Shown piece by piece: positions 22,801 through 64,000 of a DNA stretch of 64,000 nt. This DNA is from Gavia stellata (lineage: Eukaryota; Chordata; Aves; Gaviiformes; Gaviidae), in contig NC_082603.1 in assembly GCF_030936135.1 (NCBI RefSeq), forward strand, positions 14,910,880-14,974,879, read 5' to 3'. Both the position numbers and the translations under genes were made by a program. Every line of letters begins with the position of its first letter. The stretch's first letter is position 1. Below the pieces are notes generated by a model. It saw only the letters and a list, made by a program, of their open reading frames with translations. It had not been told where the DNA came from and did no database searches.

Positions 22801-22864
22801 ATGTTAAAACAGATGGGAAGAACAAGCCAAGCTGTGCTAATAATTTTGTACGTGTTAATGACTG
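22801..22864 (+). CDS. VCAM1: VCAM1 exon 1: signal peptide
   Basis: Encodes residues 1-21 plus one base. A short basic start is followed by the hydrophobic core AVLIILYVLM. The donor is GTAAGT. The first ATG has a weak context (C at -3); the ATG four codons on has G at +4 and would still leave a usable signal peptide. Confidence 0.9.
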
Positions 22865-25342
22865 GTAAGTTGGGGAGGGGGTGTTTGCTTTATTTGTTTT
22901 TAATTTTGTTAAGTGTAAACTGGCCTACAATTTACTGTTTGATTTTTTTTTTTTTTAATATAATTTTTTTAATTTCTCTTTGTTTCAGTTGCTTTTACAT
23001 TTCGGTGAATACAACTGTCAATTAAGTAGTTCTGTCAAAATGTAAGGAAGCTTTTTTTTTGACATTTACTTCGAGCTTTTCTGTGCTCTGCAATGACACA
23101 GTCATTTTCTTACTGAGTTTGCTAAAAGACAGTCTGGGAGACAACTGCAGTATATCACTGCATGTTTGAATTTTTTTTTTTTTACACTGTCATCCCTGAC
23201 AGTATCAGTCAAGTTTAGTACTAAATGTCCTGTTAAAAGTGATTCTGCAGTTGTCCTTGCTATGCAACTTAGCACCCCTCCCCTCAAATATTACAAAGTT
23301 TTAGAACCAGATCCACCTGACAAAAAAGTTATATTGTGCCAATGCATTTATTTTCACTGACTGCATTGGGTTTATGCCATTTTATACACAAGAACTGTCT
23401 GTTAGAGTCATTTGAGTGTGTATTATCTTTGACAAAAATAGCAATATTTATGAGGTATTTTTGAGATGTAAACCACTGTATGAGCTTTATTAGTTTAACC
23501 TCCACACAACTGTAAAGTGAATTTGCAAAGCAATAACCTTGTGTCACAGTAGAAGAAATGGGGAAAATAAATGTTGAAAACGCTTCTGAATTTATGTATG
23601 TTCTCCCTATTGTAGTTAAAGCTTTTGAAATGGAGATTATACCTGCTAACAGAATTGTTGCACAGATTGGAGAAACACTTGTACTCACATGCAACACTAC
23701 TGGCTGTGCCTCACCAAGTTTTTCCTGGAGAACCCAGATGGACAACCCTCTTGGAGGAACAGTGAACAACCATAAAACATACTCTACCTTGACTATGAGT
23801 CCAGTTAGCGTTGTGAATTCTCATGATTATCTGTGTACTGTCTTCTGTGGTGTGAAAGAGAAAAAAGAGAAGAGTATCAAAGTTGAAATTTACTGTAAGT
23901 AAAAATGTAAAATTACCTTAACTATTACACGTTTGTAAAAATCAATAGTTGTTTTTAGATATTGTGGTTGGTAGTTAACTGATAATGCTAGGATAATGAG
24001 TCAGCTATAGCTTAACATCTATTTCCTTGTAAGAGTCCTTTATCTGTCTGTTCAGGACTCTTTCTCAGACCCTTTCTGCTTAGCTTTCTGCATTGAAGGT
24101 AGTACGTACTCATCTTATTTATTCTTATTCTGGGTAATACTTGAAAGACAAAGTATAGACTCCCCAAAACATTTGTGGAGCTGGGGAAAAAAAAAAACCA
24201 AACCAACCAGTGTGGTTGAGATAGATGTATTTGGGAAACCTGCAAGTGCAGAGCACCTAATGAAAGCCTTTGCAGTTTGCAGGGGAATGATTCAGATGTC
24301 TAAACCTACCAGCACAAAAAACAGGGTACCACCAGTGTATGGATTGCTCTGGATGCCTATATTCAGGGAGTTGTATCACCTAGGTGCCTTGCTGGATCTT
24401 ATTAGATCATTTGTGATCGTACTTCAACAATTGTACAAATATAATTCCTGTTAGCGTATGAACTGCTTATAAAAGACCTGTATGCCTTCATATCAAGATT
24501 TGTCTTGTAATAAAGTTATTATAATATCATGTTCTGAACGCCTCTAAACTCAACATGTTTGATGTTTGGGTCTTGCTCTTATGTTGACCCTAGAGCTCAT
24601 CTCTGGTAGACTAAAGGAATGGATTTTGATCTTTTAGCTTTCCCCAGTGATCCTGTCATTGAGATCAGCCCATCCTTAGTTGCTGGAGAACGAGTCACTG
24701 TCATCTGTAAAATTCCTGATGTATATCCTTCTGATCACCTGGAAGTACTCCTAAAGAAAGAGGAACATGTTCTTCATAAGGAACATTTTTATGAAGGTGA
24801 CAGCACAAATACAGAGACCAAAACTGTGACATATTCATTTACTCTCACGGCTGAAGATATTGGGAAAGAGATTACATGTGTGGCCTCATTAGCAATTGGT
24901 AACTTGGACCTTGAACCCAAAGAAAGAATAGCTTCTCAGAAACTGAATGCAAACTGTAAGTATTTTTCTTCTAGGGCTTTCACACCAAGTACTGCTTAAT
25001 GTTAAGTTTCATGGAATGGGTTTACAAAGTGTGTGCTATAAATAATTTATGATCTGCACTTCTTATCTATATTATTTTTGTAGATAAGCTGTTGTATTCA
25101 GTTGAATTCTGTTGTATTCAGTAACAGTCACTGAGTCATTAAATACCCACTGTTGTTCATGACAGAAGTTAGGCAATGCTTTAGTAACTCCTCTCTCACT
25201 CTCTTACCTTGGGCACTGGTGCTCAGTCAGAAAGTAAAGACCAGAACAAAAATGGCAGCATGCAGATAAACAATTGTTTTTAAAATTGCCATTGTATGCT
25301 TAGCAGCTCTAAGTTTATAGTCCTAAACAATAGGGAGACAGA

Positions 25343-25377
<35 letters not shown>

Positions 25378-28300
25378 GTACACATTTTTTCTAGCTTAGT
25401 TTTCAAAGCTGCAAGCTAAATGTCTTATCAAGTCTGGAAAAATTGTTCCACTGTGTTATTGGAATACACATTTTTAATTTTTTCTTGGTAGTGTGTGAAA
25501 TGTACCTCTAGTGAACCTAGTGTTAAAGATGTGCATGTCATTCTTCATTAACCTACTGACCTTATCTCTCTTTTGTTCTCTTCCAGTTGGTCCACAAAAT
25601 ACTATCATTACTGCATCTCCAGGCAACTTCCTAATGGAAGGAGACCCTCTAAATCTCACTTGTGTGACTGAGAGTAATCCACCACCACAAATAACGTGGA
25701 GAAAACATCTGGCTGATGAAAGCATTCAGCATCTGATAGAACACAATGTCCTTTCTATTCCCCATGCCCATTTCACTGATTCAGGACTGTACACCTGTGA
25801 AGTAATTAATCTGGTAACTAATAAAACAGAGAAAGCAACTGTGGACATTGTTATACAAGGTACAAGTCTACTTGACTTTAACTTGTATTATCCTGTACCC
25901 CATTGGCAGCTGCCTGTTGGGGTGGAGGATGCTGAAACACTGAAAATTAGGAAACTATAGGGTCCTATTATGTATTCAAGATTTAGTTTTCAATTTACTG
26001 CTGCTCTTCATGGGCTATGCTTTTCATTTCCATGCTTAATTTTCAGCTAGTTCTCTCTGTACTGCTGTTGTACATGTGTACCTGTATACATTTCCTGCAA
26101 TGCAACCGTCAAAGTGATAAAAGAATCTGAGAAAGTGATGGTGTGGCAGACACTGTTATTTCCTTGAAATGCTAATGTACATAGCAATTTCACAGGGACA
26201 TCACAGTCTCCTCCTTTAAACTAGTAGTTTTAGTCATTAGTAGTAAATTTAGTAGTCATTTAATAGTAAAACTATTGGGACACCATTATTATTATTATTA
26301 TTTATTATTATTATTGCTACTATTTCAATAGAGCCAAAAGTCTCAGATGGAGCCTGGGACCAAAACCAAAATGAACAGATCCTTGGGAGAGCAATTCCTG
26401 CTTTAAACCCTCTCTGTCTTTAGTACTTTTGCGTTAGTATAACAGCCTGTTCTTTTGTCATGCAGGTGCTCCAAACATTGTAGAACTCTCCATTGAGCCT
26501 TCTACAACAGTTCAAGAAGGAGAAAATGTTTCCATACAATGTTCTGCTGAGAGTTACCCTCCTCCCAAGATTATTTTAAGGAGAAAATCTGACAGTGCAG
26601 ACATGAGGCCTTACAGTGAGGGGACAATTCTCCTTCTTCCATCTGTAACATTCCTAAATGGAGGAGACTATGAATGCGTAGCAGAAAATAAGTTTGGGAA
26701 AAGTAAAAGTGAAACAACGCTTAATGTGGAATGTAAGTATGTGTAATGTTTTCCCAATAATTTAAAAATAATTAGTTAATTCTCCACTCACTTCAGTGAT
26801 AAATATAACCATCAAACTAAACAAAACCCTGTGCGTACAAAAAAACTCAACATAGTCCTCTGCTCTTCCCCAAAGGAAGAGCAGTGCTGATGAGCAAAAC
26901 AAAGACATGAAATCTTCAATGTAATGACAGTCTTAAGTCAGGATCTGAATGAGTGAGAAACTGATCTACCTTCTTAACATTCTTCATTAGAAGTACCTGG
27001 TTAGTACGTTTAGGCTATAGAGAGTTTGTATGGAAGCTCTGATACTGTGTGCTTTACTTATTCTGAGAATGAAAAAGAAATTAATTTTGGGAGGCCGACA
27101 ACCTGGCATCCAGTAGGACATGTTGGATCCATTTCTAAAAAATCCAGTGATGATTAGCTACATGATTCTTCCTTTCAGATGGACCGAAGAATACAATGAT
27201 CTCTGTTATCCCTGCTACTGCTGTTAAAGAAGGAGAAACTGTGACGATGAAATGTACTAGTTCTGGTAATCCGGCTCCAGTGATCTCTTGGAAGAAAAAG
27301 AAGGCCACCGGGGAGTCTGAGAAAATTTTTAAAGATGCAACTTTAACTATACAGAACATAAAAAGTCAAGATCTGGGGCTTTATGAATGTGAAGCTTATA
27401 ACCAATTTGGCAAAGAAGAAAAAGCTGTGAAATTACTTGTTCAAGGTTGGTAGAACAAGATGGAACACAAGTTTTTTGTTTTATGTATTTTAGGTCCAGA
27501 TCTCATTCTGTGAAGGATGGGGGACTTCTGTCTTTGATATCAACAGAGCTAAAAGGTGGCCCTAATGTCATTAAATCATGTAGGAAGCTTTAAACAATGG
27601 AGGGTGAAATCTGCCTTAGCACACATAGTTTATGCAAAGTTCTCATGTCAGTTGAGCTTCCATCACTCCTTCCAATTGGCAAATGTACGCATGAGGCAAA
27701 GCAGCCATGCAGTGCCTACATTTTATTCCAGATAGGTCTCAGTGGAGGATCCAGATACCTGCATACAAAAGATTCAAAGAGAAAGTACATGCTGAAACTT
27801 CTCTGTGGAGGGTCTGTATTACAGCCCCTTGGCTCTCCTTTAAGTTACGACTCTGTATCCTGTTCTCACAACCTGCATTTAAGCTATACCAAATGCTGAT
27901 TCCTCAACCTACATGCAATGATAGCAAAGTTTCATTTTCAGTAGTAAGCACACTTCTCTGCTTTAGCCCTGCTGCTTCTGTTTATTGCATGGCGACAATG
28001 TATTGCTTAGGGATCACTTCTGTCACTAATCCATCCCTCTTCCTTATTCATTACTACTTTTGTAGCTGCACCAAATAATACACTTTGAGTTTTCCCTTCA
28101 AGTGCAGTGATACAAGGAGAAAGTGTTACCATCTCTTGCACAACTGCGGATGTTACATCTGTTCAGAGTACTTTGTAAAAGAAAATAGGTGATGGGATCA
28201 CAACCCTTGAAACAGTAGATGGCAAATACACCATAGACAGGGCTCAGCTAAAGGACACAGGAACATATGAATGCATATCATTAATGAACTGGAAGAACTG

Positions 28301-30141
28301 TCTCAGCACATAGTACTTTGTCAAAGGTTAGTTAAAATAACTACTGTACAGAGTTAATATTAGGATTTGTTTTAGACAGATGGAATGATATCTTCACTTC
28401 AATTCCATTAAGAATGAATTGTCTTTAAAAAAACTGAGATGAGTTACACAGGTTCTTGTCATAAGTGGTAGGATCTTAGTGCTAATGAAAACTTCTGTCC
28501 AAAATGTCAAATGCACAGAATAATTGCTGCTTCAACATTTTTCATAGTTCTACTTCCACCTTTGAAAACAGGATGTAAAATTGTGAAACCTAGTGGGAAA
28601 AAATACAATTCTAGGACTTCTTCCTTTGCCTTTTCTATTTCTTTTCTGTTGAAAGAGGACATCAAGCTCTGGGTCTGTTGGTCTGTGCCCTTTCATGAAC
28701 TCAAATGAATAAACAGTGAATTTAAAATATGAAAAGAAGAAAAGTCTCTATATAGTGTAAAAGATATGCAACATACTCCATCAACTGATAAAATGTTCTT
28801 TCTGTCAGCTGCTGTTGACTGCAGGGTGTGAAGGATACCTAGTGACAGAGTAGTGTCTAAAGCTATGTGCTCAATTATAGTGAATCCATTAACTGGATTA
28901 GTACTTTGTGTGTACACGCTGCTAATACCTCATGAGTTTCTTGTTGTTTGTTGCTAAATGCTACCTTGCATTTCTTTTCTTTTCAGTTCCTCCCCAAAAT
29001 ATTACTGTGTTAGTATATCCATCAGAAAATGTTAAAGAAGGAGAAAATGTCACTATTACATGTAGCACATACAGTAACCCACCATCACAGATGGTCCTGA
29101 AAAAAGTCCATCAGGAAAAAGAAATTATTCTGCCATCAGTGAATGGAACCTTTATACTCTACAACGTCACCAAAAATGATACAGGCAGATATTTGCTTGA
29201 TGTTTTCAATGAGGTTGGAAACAGCATCAAAGTGATTGAGATAGCTGTTGTAGGTAGGTAGATCTATTGCCTTAAACTTATTTTGTTCATACTTTCTAAT
29301 GAATTTTGTGTCAAGGTGAGCACAACTAGTTCATGGCTGATCTTTGTGCAACAATACTGCAGTTAACCTAAAAAAAAAAATAAAATCCCAAAATCAGACC
29401 AAATAATAGAACAAGTGCTGAGAATAAGCTGTATTTAACCTCCTTTCAGTGTGGATGTTATTGTCTCTCTTACCTGAGTTGGTGCAGCAGCTTTAAGGAT
29501 AGGGCCAGAAAAAGGTGGATCCTGGCCACATTTCTGTCCAAATGCATGAACAGTGAGACTAATCTAGAGAAAGTTCTGTTTCACAAAAAGATCTAAAGAC
29601 TGGACTTTTAAAACACGGTCTTCTCCTGAAGCGTTATTTCCAGGAGGTAGAAATGTTCCCAGATGTTTCCTGGGTAAAATATGTGATGATATTCTTGTAT
29701 TCTTCATGAACTCTATGGTATTCTTCATTGTAGATGGTATCAGATGGGTATGAACTTACCACTTCAAGACCAAGATAGTAGCTAGGAATTAAAGTGTGTA
29801 ATATGGAGTTCCTAAAGAAAAAAGCACAGGGAAAATGTTTTGAAACATTCTTTGTGCATGAAAACAGAAATCGTGTTCTAAATGAAGGTCATTAATAACA
29901 CTGCTTTTACAGTAATATGCATGTGTCTGTTTCAATCCGTTTTTATACAACTTTTTTTCTCTTTTTGTTTCTATTTTCAGGAAGATTGGAAAAAACAGAT
30001 CAAATGATACCACTGATTATTGCATTCTCCTGTGTAACAGCAATAGCAGTACCTGTAGTTGCAATTTTGATCTACGTGTCAAGAAAAGCAAAGATAAATG
30101 GATCCTACAGTCTTGTAAAAGCACTCAGGCTGAAAGTGTGA
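22801..30141 (+). CDS. VCAM1: vascular cell adhesion molecule 1 (eight live coding exons)
   Basis: VCAM1 is a cytokine-induced endothelial surface glycoprotein that binds alpha4beta1 and alpha4beta7 integrins on leukocytes. Coding exons: 22801-22864, 23616-23894, 24638-24955, 25587-25859, 26466-26732, 27179-27445, 28987-29253, 29981-30141. All introns are phase 1 with GT/AG ends; joined length is 1,896 bases, or 631 residues. There is a signal peptide (about 1-24, cut expected after Ala24), six Ig domains, a transmembrane helix (about 588-611) and a 20-residue tail carrying GSYSLV as in human. Domain 1 has the four-cysteine pattern and MDNPL at 63-67; the Asp is residue 40 of the mature chain, matching the human integrin-contact Asp40. 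Unlike seven-domain human VCAM1, no second copy of the domain 1-3 block is present. A dead Ig exon lies at 28,066-28,326. A second in-frame ATG at 22,813 is an alternative start. Identity is very secure; exact start less so. Confidence 0.95.
23616..23894 (+). CDS. VCAM1: VCAM1 exon 2: Ig domain 1 (integrin-binding)
   Basis: Encodes residues 22-114. It shows LTCNTTGC near 45-52, SWRTQ then MDNPL at 63-67, and YLCTVFC, giving the two disulfides typical of VCAM1 domain 1. The C-D loop motif is IDSPL in human; Asp, Pro and Leu are kept here. Donor GTAAGT. Confidence 0.95.
24638..24955 (+). CDS. VCAM1: VCAM1 exon 3: Ig domain 2
   Basis: Encodes an intercellular-adhesion-type Ig domain with VTVICKIPDVYPSDHLEV, matching the human domain 2 pattern around VYPFDRLEI, and the distal cysteine in EITCVA. 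It is preceded by a pyrimidine-rich acceptor ending in TTTTAG and followed by GTAAGT. Confidence 0.95.
25352..25377. repeat. poly-A tract in VCAM1 intron
   Basis: A run of 26 A in the intron between the domain 2 and domain 3 exons. No retroposon body is recognised before it. Confidence 0.9.
25587..25859 (+). CDS. VCAM1: VCAM1 exon 4: Ig domain 3
   Basis: I-set type Ig domain: GPQNT start, NLTCVTESNPPPQITW around the first cysteine, and DSGLYTCEV around the second. It corresponds to human domain 3 (SPKNTVISV... DSGIYVCEG). Donor is GTACAA, slightly weaker than its neighbours. Confidence 0.93.
26286..26314. repeat. ATT-type microsatellite in VCAM1 intron
   Basis: Repeated ATT units with one TTTA interruption, in the intron before the domain 4 exon. 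Likely length-polymorphic. Confidence 0.85.
26466..26732 (+). CDS. VCAM1: VCAM1 exon 5: Ig domain 4
   Basis: Encodes 88 full codons between phase-1 junctions, with no internal ATG at the start, so a simple ORF scan from ATG misses it. VSIQCSAESYPPPKIILRRK and GGDYECVAENKFG carry the two cysteines. It is a C2/I-set domain without the domain-1 integrin motif, so it is not an equivalent of human domain 4. Confidence 0.93.
27179..27445 (+). CDS. VCAM1: VCAM1 exon 6: Ig domain 5
   Basis: I-set Ig domain: GPKNTMISV start, VTMKCTSSGNPAPVISWKKK, and LGLYECEAYNQFG. The pattern resembles domains 3 and 4 of the same protein, suggesting tandem duplication of one exon type. Donor GTTGGT. Confidence 0.93.
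28066..28326 (+). pseudogene. VCAM1: dead Ig-domain exon inside VCAM1
   Basis: Flanked by an intact acceptor (TTTTGTAG) and donor (GTTAGT), this 261-base block reads as an Ig domain in the phase expected for VCAM1: GESVTISCTT, then DGKYTIDRAQLKDTGTYEC. It is very like human domain 7 (DGAYTIRKAQLKDAGVYEC from memory). In frame it carries TGA at 28,086, TAA at 28,176 and TAG at 28,311. The text after the second cysteine fits the family better in another frame, so a one-base shift near 28,275-28,285 is likely and the third stop is probably its consequence. Because both flanking introns are phase 1, skipping it leaves the VCAM1 frame intact. Confidence 0.88.
28987..29253 (+). CDS. VCAM1: VCAM1 exon 7 (live): last Ig domain, lacks one cysteine
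   Basis: Encodes residues 490-578. PSENVKEGENVTITC resembles the start of human domain 7, and the frame is open throughout. The first cysteine is Cys515, but the DxGxYxC motif reads DTGRYLL: residue 560 is Leu (codon 29,196-29,198) where the disulfide partner should be. Donor GTAGGT. Confidence 0.92.
29981..30141 (+). CDS. VCAM1: VCAM1 exon 8 (live): transmembrane segment and tail
   Basis: A short linker is followed by a hydrophobic stretch of about 24 residues (588-611), then SRKAKINGSYSLVKA and a basic end LKV before TGA. Human VCAM1 has nearly the same tail (ARKANMKGSYSLVEA). The acceptor follows a long T-rich tract. Confidence 0.95.
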
Positions 30142-31551
30142 TCACATGAATATAAGTCCAAGTTCACAATAAGCAATGTTATTTATTGTTGTGACTGGCT
30201 CTACTCTTCTATAACATATGGTAACAAACAAGTGACTTAACACCACCATGTGATAGCAAATGGGGTTGTTTTTTCATGTTTTGATAAGTATTTCAGTATT
30301 TAATTTAAAGAGAAAGCTAGCATCCTGTCCTAGAAATTGGTAAATCACTTCTGTGTTGAAGCATGCTGAACAAAGAGTTCCTTGGAGAACTAGGTTTGTA
30401 CATAGTGTATAATTTGTGTTATAAATATGTTCAACTGAATATCAGTTTGTAAAATTGCAGTCTTACTGCAACTGTACAGAGAAATGTTGTTAATTCAAAG
30501 ATATAACTCAGTATTACTTGAGCTGATAAGATGATAATATTTTATTTTGTATTACTCCACAGAGTGAATAATTTTAATATAATTTGTCTGCTTGTGATAA
30601 TGTTTGGAAAATGTTCTCTTTCATTAATATTGCCATAAACTCTGTACCTTCAATGAAGTTACACGATCACTAGGCTATGCATTTCTAATTAATTTAAATT
30701 AATTTAAGATCTCAAGGCTCATTTGTGAAACATTTTCTTTTCAATATTATTCAGAGGGTGTCATGGATTATAGTCTAGTTAGTTAGGTATTTTTGTGGGG
30801 TTTAATCATTCTCAAATCAATGTCAGAATTCTGTTATTTCGTTATGAGCCAAATCAGACCCTTCATTTAGAATATAAGCAGCTGGCTGAATATGAGCCAG
30901 CAGTGTGCCCAGGTGGCCAAGAAGGCGAACAGCACCCTGGCTTGTATCAGAAACAGTGTGGCCAGCAGGACTAGGGAAGTGATTGTCCCTCTGTACTGGG
31001 CACTGGTGAGGCCACACCTTGAATACTGTCTTCGGTTTTGGGCCCCTCACTACAAGAAAGACATTGAGGCATTGGAGCGTGTCCAGAGAAGAGCAACGAA
31101 GCTGGTGAAGGGTCTAGAGCACAAGTCTTATGAGGAGCGGCTAAGAGAGCTGGGGTTGTTTAGCCTCAAGAAGAGGAGACCTCATTGCTCTCTACAGCTA
31201 CCTGAGAGGAGGTTGTAGAGAGGTGGGTGTTGGTCTCTTCTCCCAAGAGACAAGTGACAGGACAAGAGGAAATGGCCTCAAGTTGTACCAGGGGAGGTTT
31301 AGACCGGACATTAGGAAAAACTTCTTCACTGAAAGGGTTGTCAGACACTGGAACAGGCTGCCCAGGGAGGTGGTTGAGTCACCATCCCTGGAGGTATTTA
31401 AAAGACATGTGGATGAGGTGCTTAGGGACATGGTTTAGTGGTGGACTTAGCAGTGTTATGTTTACAGTTGGACTTGATGATCTTAAAGGTATTTTCCAAC
31501 CTAAATGATTCTATGATAAATACGCTTTCCAGATTTCCACTCCAAAATAAA
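30142..31551 (+). other. VCAM1: VCAM1 3' UTR region (end uncertain)
   Basis: AT-rich sequence after the stop with an ATTTA element inside TTATTTATTG near 30,180, a type of element that destabilises cytokine-induced mRNAs. I see no canonical AATAAA before 31,546-31,551, which lies just beyond the CR1 insertion; variant signals such as CATAAA near 30,635 could be used instead. If the canonical signal is used, the CR1 fragment is part of the UTR. Confidence 0.35.
30883..31517 (+). mobile_element. CR1 LINE fragment, copy A
   Basis: The 3' portion of an avian CR1 in sense orientation. The in-frame piece at 30,892-31,218 reads [20 protein letters not shown] and later [19 protein letters not shown], the C-terminal end of the CR1 ORF2 protein. 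It then runs through the conserved 3' end to CCTAAATGATTCTATGAT. It is 5'-truncated near 30,883. Against the CR1 consensus I recall, about ten bases are missing in 'AGAAGAGGAGACCT'. Not able to move. Confidence 0.95.
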
Positions 31552-34495: not shown

Positions 34496-35291
34496 CATTG
34501 ATCTGGACAGGCTGGATCGATGGGTCAATTGTATGCGGTTCAACAAGGCCGGGTGCTGAGTCCTACACTTGAGTCACAACGCTACAGGCTTGGGGACGAT
34601 TGGCTGGAAAGCTGCCTGGCAGAAAAGGACCTGGGGGTGTTGATTGACAGATGGCTGAATATGAGCCAGCAGTGTACCCAGGTGGCCAAGAAGGCCAACA
34701 GCATCCTGGCCTGTATCAGAAATAGTGTGGCCAGCAGGAGTAGGGAGGTGATCGTGCCCCTGTACTCAGCACTGGTGAGGCCGCACCTCGAATACTGTGT
34801 TCAGTTTTGGGCCCCTCACTACAAGAAAGACATTGAGGCACTGGAGCATGTCCAGAGAAGGGCGACAAAGCTGGTGAGGGGTATGGAGCACAAGTCTTAT
34901 GAGGAGTGGCTGAGGGAACTGGGGTTGTTCAGTCTGGAGAAGAGGAGACCTTATCGCTCTCTACGGCTACCTGAGAGGAGGTTGTAGAGAGGTGGGTGTT
35001 GGTCTCTTCTCCCAAGCGACAAGTGATAGGACAGGAGGAAATGGCCTCAAGTTGTACCAGGGGAGGTTTAGACTGGACATTAGGAAAAACTTCTTCACTG
35101 AAAGGGTTGTCAGACACTGGAACAGGCTGCCCAGGGAGGTGGTTGAGTCACCATCCCTGGAGGTATTTAAAAGACATGTGGATGAGGTGCTTAGGGACAT
35201 GGTTTAGTGGTGGACTTAGCAGTGTTATGTTTACAGTTGGACTTGATGATCTTAAAGGTCTTTCCCAACCTAAATGATTCTATGATTCTGT
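34496..35291 (+). mobile_element. CR1 LINE fragment, copy B
   Basis: Sense-strand avian CR1 3' portion, longer at its 5' end than copy A. The frame at 34,520-34,987 covers the C-terminal part of the ORF2 protein: [19 protein letters not shown], then [15 protein letters not shown] and [16 protein letters not shown]. It ends with the ATTCTATGATTCTGTGA-type terminal repeat. It lacks the endonuclease and most of the reverse transcriptase, so it is inactive. From 34,660 on, it stays in exact register with copy A. Confidence 0.96.
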
Positions 35292-54807: not shown

Positions 54808-62935
<8,128 letters not shown>

Positions 62936-63980
62936 GACTGGCGGTGAGCGGAGCTGTCTCTCGCAGAGGCCCCTGCCGCGCCGATGGGATCCCAGCGGAG
63001 CCCTGCAGACGGCGAGCCCCCGGCGAAGCAGGTCCCCGCGGCCGCAAACGTTTGGCGACGGAAGCGCGCCCAAGATGCGCTCCGGTGGCGGCGGTGCCCC
63101 GACCTGCCGGTGCCTGGGCCGGGCGGCGGCGCTGGAGCAGGCGCAGAGCGGAGCCACCTCCCCGCCCACCCGCCGTGGGTCGGCAGAGGCGGCTCCGCTG
63201 CGTGAGGAGCAGCCACCGGGTCCCAGCGCCCGGGCAGCCGCGTAGCGGGCGGGGAGAGCTTCCTTCCCGCGTTAACGACCACGTCCCGGCACCGGGCAGA
63301 GCTGCGGCGGCTTGGTGTCCCGGAGGAAGCATCGCCTTTCCCCTGTCCCGAGGCTACAGCCAAGGGCCGCGCTAGGCCGGAGCGGTGACAAATGCGGCAC
63401 CCCGCAGGCTGCGGCTAAGCGGCGGCTGGGACGGCAGCCCCGCGGGCACAGCTCTGCCCTGCGGCGCCCTGTGCCGCCGCCGAAGGCCGGAGGAGAGCGG
63501 CCGGACTCCTGCCGTCACGGTCACAAGCGAATAGTTTTCCCCAGAAGCGAGATCGCTAAAAGAAGCACGGAGAGACATGCGCGTGTTGGTCTGGCAGTCA
63601 CACTCGGAACTTTATTACGGGCGTATCGGGAACGGCCGGGCCCTTCGCGCCGCTTCGGCCAAGCGAAGGCACACTCCCTCTACCACCGCCAGCAGTTTTG
63701 TTACGCGAACCCCCGTGATGCGCTCGGGACAGGTGACGCCCTCCCGTTACTTCCCGTGGGCGTGTGACGGCGCCGAGGCGCCGCCTGCGCTCCCCGGGCA
63801 GCGGCCGGGACCGGCCGGCTACCCCCGCCGCCGCCCCGCGCTCCCGGCCCCCGCCGCCCTCTCTGGCCCGTGCCCAGGGTGGCCGCCCGCCGCCTGGTTG
63901 GCTGCGGTTAGCGTGGCTGCCCTGCGGTTGGCTGGTCGGTGGGAGGTGTGCGGGGCGTGGGGGCTGCTTCTTCCCGGAGT

Positions 63981-63993
63981 AAGATGGCGGCCG
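63981..63993 (+). promoter_or_regulatory. YY1-type motif over the start codon
   Basis: AAGATGGCGGCCG matches the YY1 consensus AANATGGCGGC and contains the start codon. This arrangement is common in housekeeping and mitochondrial-protein genes and supports a real transcription start just upstream. Confidence 0.7.
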
Positions 63994-64000
63994 TGACCGC
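63984..64000 (+). CDS. DBT: start of a protein gene, probably DBT exon 1 (partial)
   Basis: Only 17 coding bases are visible: MAAVT and part of a sixth codon. Human DBT begins MAAV and lies head to head with RTCA, so position and the first four residues agree. DBT is the E2 dihydrolipoyl transacylase of the mitochondrial branched-chain ketoacid dehydrogenase. MAA starts are common, so the sequence alone cannot prove it; the call rests mainly on neighbourhood. CDC14A also begins MAA but continues ES in human and lies on the other side of RTCA there. Confidence 0.5.

Follow-up and report, generated by a model that had tools for sequence, protein, structure and literature searches.

The VCAM1 gene of this bird (Gavia stellata) carries a decayed immunoglobulin (Ig) exon, at 28066-28326, inside a coding frame that is otherwise open. 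The block is homologous to the VCAM1 Ig exons, shares their phase and contains in-frame stops, and the gene reads open when it is skipped. Ordinary exon death with frame-neutral skipping is probably the correct explanation, the block being the bird counterpart of the exon for domain 7 (D7) of human VCAM1. A D7-type exon would have lost constraint and then decayed through nonsense mutations and short deletions, leaving a relic that persists within the intron separating live Ig exons 5 and 6. The gene would now work by splicing 27445 to 28987, presumably as its normal path, and the product would be a membrane-anchored VCAM1 of 631 aa with six Ig domains, the last of which would come from an older neighbouring exon. 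The features lie as follows in the window (the whole 64,000-nucleotide stretch of DNA that was analysed); the human domains D1 to D7 are those of a human VCAM1 sequence for which the comparison with a database copy covered D1-D2 only.

22801..22864, + strand: VCAM1 signal-peptide exon, coding part, with the ATG at 22801; belongs to the 631-aa open reading.
23616..23894, + strand: Ig1 exon; 53/89 (59.6%) identity to human D1.
24638..24955, + strand: Ig2 exon; 44/106 (41.5%) identity to human D2; inside the 1vca match.
25587..25859, + strand: Ig3 exon; top human matches D3 (score 168) and D6 (155).
26466..26732, + strand: Ig4 exon (bird numbering); top human matches D6 (142) and D3 (140).
27179..27445, + strand: Ig5 exon (bird numbering), the final live exon upstream of the remnant; top human matches D3 (214) and D6 (194).
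28026..28065, + strand: acceptor region of the decayed exon, with a branch-point-like CTAAT (28026-28030), a pyrimidine-rich stretch and AG; consensus matches only.
28066..28326, + strand: decayed Ig exon, top match human domain 7; identified by profile match, stops, putative deletions and tree.
28327..28332, + strand: donor of the decayed exon, AAG/GTTAGT; score 7.04.
28987..29253, + strand: the final live Ig exon, with an open frame; Pfam Ig_3 37.1 bits (cut-off 30), pLDDT 88.1.
29981..30141, + strand: transmembrane and cytoplasmic exon, coding part including the stop; open end of the 631-aa reading.

When the live coding exons are joined on the + strand and the remnant is skipped, they encode 631 aa with a sole stop at the terminus. 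A preliminary description of this DNA had called the gene otherwise intact, and this is borne out: one frame runs open through all the other exons (1896 coding nt), from the signal peptide to the sole membrane anchor. Among 244 PDB sequences, the three best matches of the joined D1-D2 region were 1vca_A, 1vsc_A and 1ij9_A, with a best E of 1e-56 to human VCAM1 (1vca). The cytoplasmic tail (29981..30141) is, by eye, similar to the human VCAM1 tail. The VCAM1 Ig exons here are all of phase 1-1, and skipping one of them thus preserves the frame. No second VCAM1 gene was seen: a query of bird D5 plus the last domain gave 34 matches with the VCAM1 exons at the top (the best 150 of 220 candidates were scored), and beyond these exons it matched other Ig genes at E of at least 1.3e-9 and approximately 24 to 42% identity. 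The D1-D2 query found no relative in a collection of genome contigs or in one of viral contigs, each scanned once. Within the gene, Ig5 is the exon that matches human D3 best, with a score (214) exceeding that of Ig3 (168), hinting that human D3 may have descended from the counterpart of bird Ig5.

The surroundings of the gene were also inspected. Two related stretches occur at 30871-31508 and 34502-35277, with open frames that resemble the reverse-transcriptase end of CR1 elements. On the - strand, 58721-58999 matches the RNA 3'-terminal phosphate cyclase family (PF01137, 27.7 bits, cut-off 27) and is an exon of such a gene, facing VCAM1; the order and orientation of these two genes are different in human. 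Globin exons match PDB globins of birds and point to an avian source; in one of these searches, the six highest rows by summed score were engineered human two-copy chains. The region 62001-64000, with a GC content of up to 0.68, is CpG-island- or promoter-like.

The remnant itself has the borders of a VCAM1 Ig exon. Its 261 nt are of phase 1-1 like its neighbours, with AG before and GT after. The stops described previously, TGA (28086), TAA (28176) and TAG (28311), all fall in the expected frame. Its Ig character is equally clear: a profile of nine other VCAM1 Ig domains (bird plus human, with the remnant left out) matched it at E 1.6e-14 in a scan of all six frames of the window, and a profile of the human domains alone matched at E 1.8e-15. 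The Pfam model 'ig' matched its first 71 residues with 32.2 bits (cut-off 21.8), and Ig_3 scored 28.4 bits, under its cut-off of 30. No other decayed Ig exon was seen in the window, where the next profile matches were weak (E 0.047 with a profile that took in the remnant, and 0.44 and 0.022 with two profiles without it); these profiles are nearly blind to D2-type domains, so a decayed D2-type exon in the window would escape them.

The reading frame towards the end of the remnant is more disturbed than was first described. A one-base shift had been placed near 28,280; a shift at approximately 28281 is indeed favoured, but more shifts are needed, and at least three one-base deletions fit best. 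A single shift near 28280 is insufficient: the exon remains divisible by three in length, and a lone one-base change would break the phase match of its ends. To locate the lesions, the 19-codon tail that starts at the second cysteine and closes the exon was fitted to a profile of six sister tails with both ends anchored. Without shifts the tail scored -16.3, a value reached by 326 of 2000 shuffled tails. The one-shift model was rejected on both grounds, namely the length and an unshifted tail that scores like shuffled DNA. The best fit places one-base deletions at 28281-28282, 28289-28290 and 28318-28319 (net minus 3), identically at every shift penalty tried (-3, -4, -6 and -8); the shifted score was reached by 4, 2 and 9 of 2000 shuffled tails at penalties of -3, -4 and -6, respectively. 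These three deletions bring back the N-x-x-G pattern of the family with the correct spacing to the exon end, and the TAG at 28311 is therefore best read as a by-product of the shifts. Evidence against the shifts comes from local alignment to human D7 alone, in which they brought no gain at a penalty of -8 or stiffer; at -6 a shift appeared at 28281, together with two doubtful ones at 28140 and 28151. The remnant is 6 bases shorter than the Ig4, Ig5 and last Ig exons (267 each). Three of these bases would be accounted for by the deletions and the other three by a residue that is absent next to the first stop; the first stop (28086) and the adjacent residue loss may have been a single event.

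The lesions are several, look independent and are confined to the remnant, with none in the other eight exons. This distribution bears on whether the stops stem from errors of assembly or base calling, or are private to this individual, a reading to which we give hardly any credence: it would have to place three in-frame stops and three putative deletions within 261 nt and leave the other 1896 coding nt open. Moreover, a single copy of the remnant was found in the 1.32-Gb assembly, with no alternative contig among the best candidates scored.

Which human domain the remnant corresponds to was addressed by scores, searches and a tree. It had been proposed that human D7 resembles the remnant more closely than it does the live last domain, and the identities agree (37/82, 45.1%, versus 26/88, with human D7). 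Used as a query against the window, human D7 placed the remnant first (E 4.7e-16), followed by bird D5 (7.8e-14) and then by the live last domain (4.8e-12). Among the human domains, the remnant scored 162 with D7 and 82 with the next best, D3, and the live last domain likewise matched D7 best (138), then D6 (120). In a ten-domain tree, the remnant and human D7 formed a group (ultrafast bootstrap 93), with the live last domain next to it but outside (86), although an AU test rejected none of three constrained trees (p 0.721, 0.239 and 0.426, the second joining the remnant with the live last domain and the third joining human D7 with the live last domain). We infer that the remnant is the ortholog of the human D7 exon.

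One could instead regard the remnant as a failed duplicate of the live last Ig exon, made in the bird lineage and never used as a domain 7. The two exons are adjacent and related (28/82 identities), and the AU p value of 0.239 leaves room for their grouping; nevertheless, the remnant scores 162 with human D7 versus 94 with the live last domain, and the tree places it with human D7 (93), which makes such a duplication highly improbable. Since the remnant pairs with human D7 and the live last domain lies outside the pair, both exons are suggested to predate the loss. On the simplest reading of the sequences, a D7-type exon and the last exon both pre-existed, and this bird then lost the D7-type exon; mammals, in turn, would have lost the counterpart of the last live exon. 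Thus, of the earlier proposal that this bird lost the membrane-proximal domain of the human type and uses a neighbouring Ig exon, the first half holds, as the bird is without a working D7-type domain (D7 being the best match of the remnant), but the neighbour is not obviously newly recruited (93/86 in the tree). It looks like an old neighbour rather than a recent substitute.

The last live Ig domain (28987-29253) has a peculiarity of its own. It is without the second, F-strand cysteine: a leucine occupies this position in GRYLLDV, where Ig3, Ig4 and Ig5 have C. An AlphaFold2 model computed from an alignment of four window domains has an Ig-like strand order for this domain, with a mean pLDDT of 88.1 and a pTM of 0.75. 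A Foldseek search with the model returned Ig domains (342 matches at E <= 0.001, of which the best 50 were examined), the best being perlecan IG3 (1gl4_B, E 2.3e-6, TM 0.72 by query). The domain is therefore predicted to keep the Ig fold despite the missing second cysteine.

The lesions also offer a rough clock. In a neutral simulation starting from the live sister exons, two stops with three to four indels were commonest at about 0.10 to 0.25 substitutions per site; with the indel share assumed to be 0.05, 0.10 or 0.15, the optimum lay at 0.25 to 0.30, 0.15 and 0.10, respectively. The avian substitution rate is near 2e-9 per site per year. With this rate and the assumed indel rates, the lesions would translate into about 50 to 125 million years, a rough figure on which we do not rely. 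The identity of the remnant to D7 (45.1%) resembles that of live pairs such as Ig2-D2 (41.5%) and Ig5-D3 (47.7%); as this is as high as in some live pairs, it argues against very long neutral decay and for the younger end of the range. The age from the D7 identity is probably lower than the lesion-based one.

The splice signals of the remnant, scored by consensus only, are within the range of live exons, and it may therefore still be recognized as an exon. Its donor (7.04; live donors 3.65 to 10.68) ranks in the top 2.4% of the 3614 GTs in the window and outscores every other GT within its intron. Its acceptor (5.62; live acceptors 5.54 to 10.86) scores about as high as the live D2 acceptor (5.54); most live exons have a stronger one, and five other AGs in the intron equal or exceed it. 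The branch-like CTAAT lies 37 nt upstream, and the tract is 77% pyrimidine, compared with 45 to 91% in live exons. If the exon were included, translation would end after 496 aa, at a stop lying 238 nt upstream of the remnant donor and 505 nt upstream of the last junction. The usual limit for nonsense-mediated decay (NMD) is 50 nt; NMD would thus be expected under the general rule, and an included transcript that escaped it could possibly give a soluble Ig1 to Ig5 form without a membrane anchor.

These features raise the alternative that the remnant has been retained as a poison exon, which on regulated inclusion would bring in the stop at 28086 and lead to NMD or to the soluble Ig1-5 form. Both an in-frame stop and usable-looking splice sites (by consensus only) are present in the sequence. 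However, the splice signals do not show use, because neutral decay can spare short splice motifs by chance, and five rival AGs weaken the case for the acceptor. A poison exon needs one stop, and the extra stops and frameshifts add nothing; known poison exons are often highly conserved (PMC11357089). We therefore regard regulated retention as unlikely. Its more specific version, in which inflamed endothelium includes the relic exon and VCAM1 output is cut by NMD, or a soluble Ig1-Ig5 decoy is released without proteolytic shedding, is very unlikely. Under exon death with frame-neutral skipping, the preferred reading, the remnant would retain no function.

A single gene thus documents the loss of a domain from an adhesion receptor, in which a frame-neutral exon dies in place and the remainder keeps its open frame. 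A further indication is that VCAM1 arrived at similar lengths in birds and mammals through different domain histories; owing to these histories, domain numbers should not be transferred between the two, for instance in the mapping of integrin sites, antibodies or splice forms. Should splicing still include the exon, this would provide a natural example in which exon decay has produced a switch for a leukocyte-adhesion molecule.

Among the matches listed in a literature search, none dealt with a decayed exon of VCAM1 or with the structure of VCAM1 in chicken or other birds. In common with human VCAM1 (P19320), the bird gene has a signal peptide, a D1-D2 unit, later Ig exons that are all of phase 1-1 and one transmembrane exon. 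The human protein has seven Ig domains, of which D1-D3 resemble D4-D6 through a proposed duplication, and D1 and D4 bind VLA-4 (PMC11678699). In contrast, the bird has one D1-type and one D2-type exon, and the D1-D3/D4-D6 duplication described for human (PMC11678699) is not seen. The bird gene further differs in having six live Ig exons, a dead D7 counterpart and a last live domain without the second cysteine.

The exon skipped in the six-domain form of human VCAM1 is that of D4. It is an intact exon that is optionally skipped, whereas in the bird the exon is broken and a full-length product requires its skipping. Human transcripts with six and with seven domains exist (PMC2033655), and the likeness to the bird lies in a six-Ig membrane form obtained by omitting one frame-neutral Ig exon. 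With poison exons, the remnant shares a stop and usable-looking splice sites inside a working gene, but it differs in having arisen by the decay of a coding exon. The closest likeness is to decayed exons in live genes, with which it shares nonsense changes and small deletions limited to one frame-neutral exon; the bird remnant looks like one more case of a pseudogenized exon in a live gene, with nothing essential that is different.
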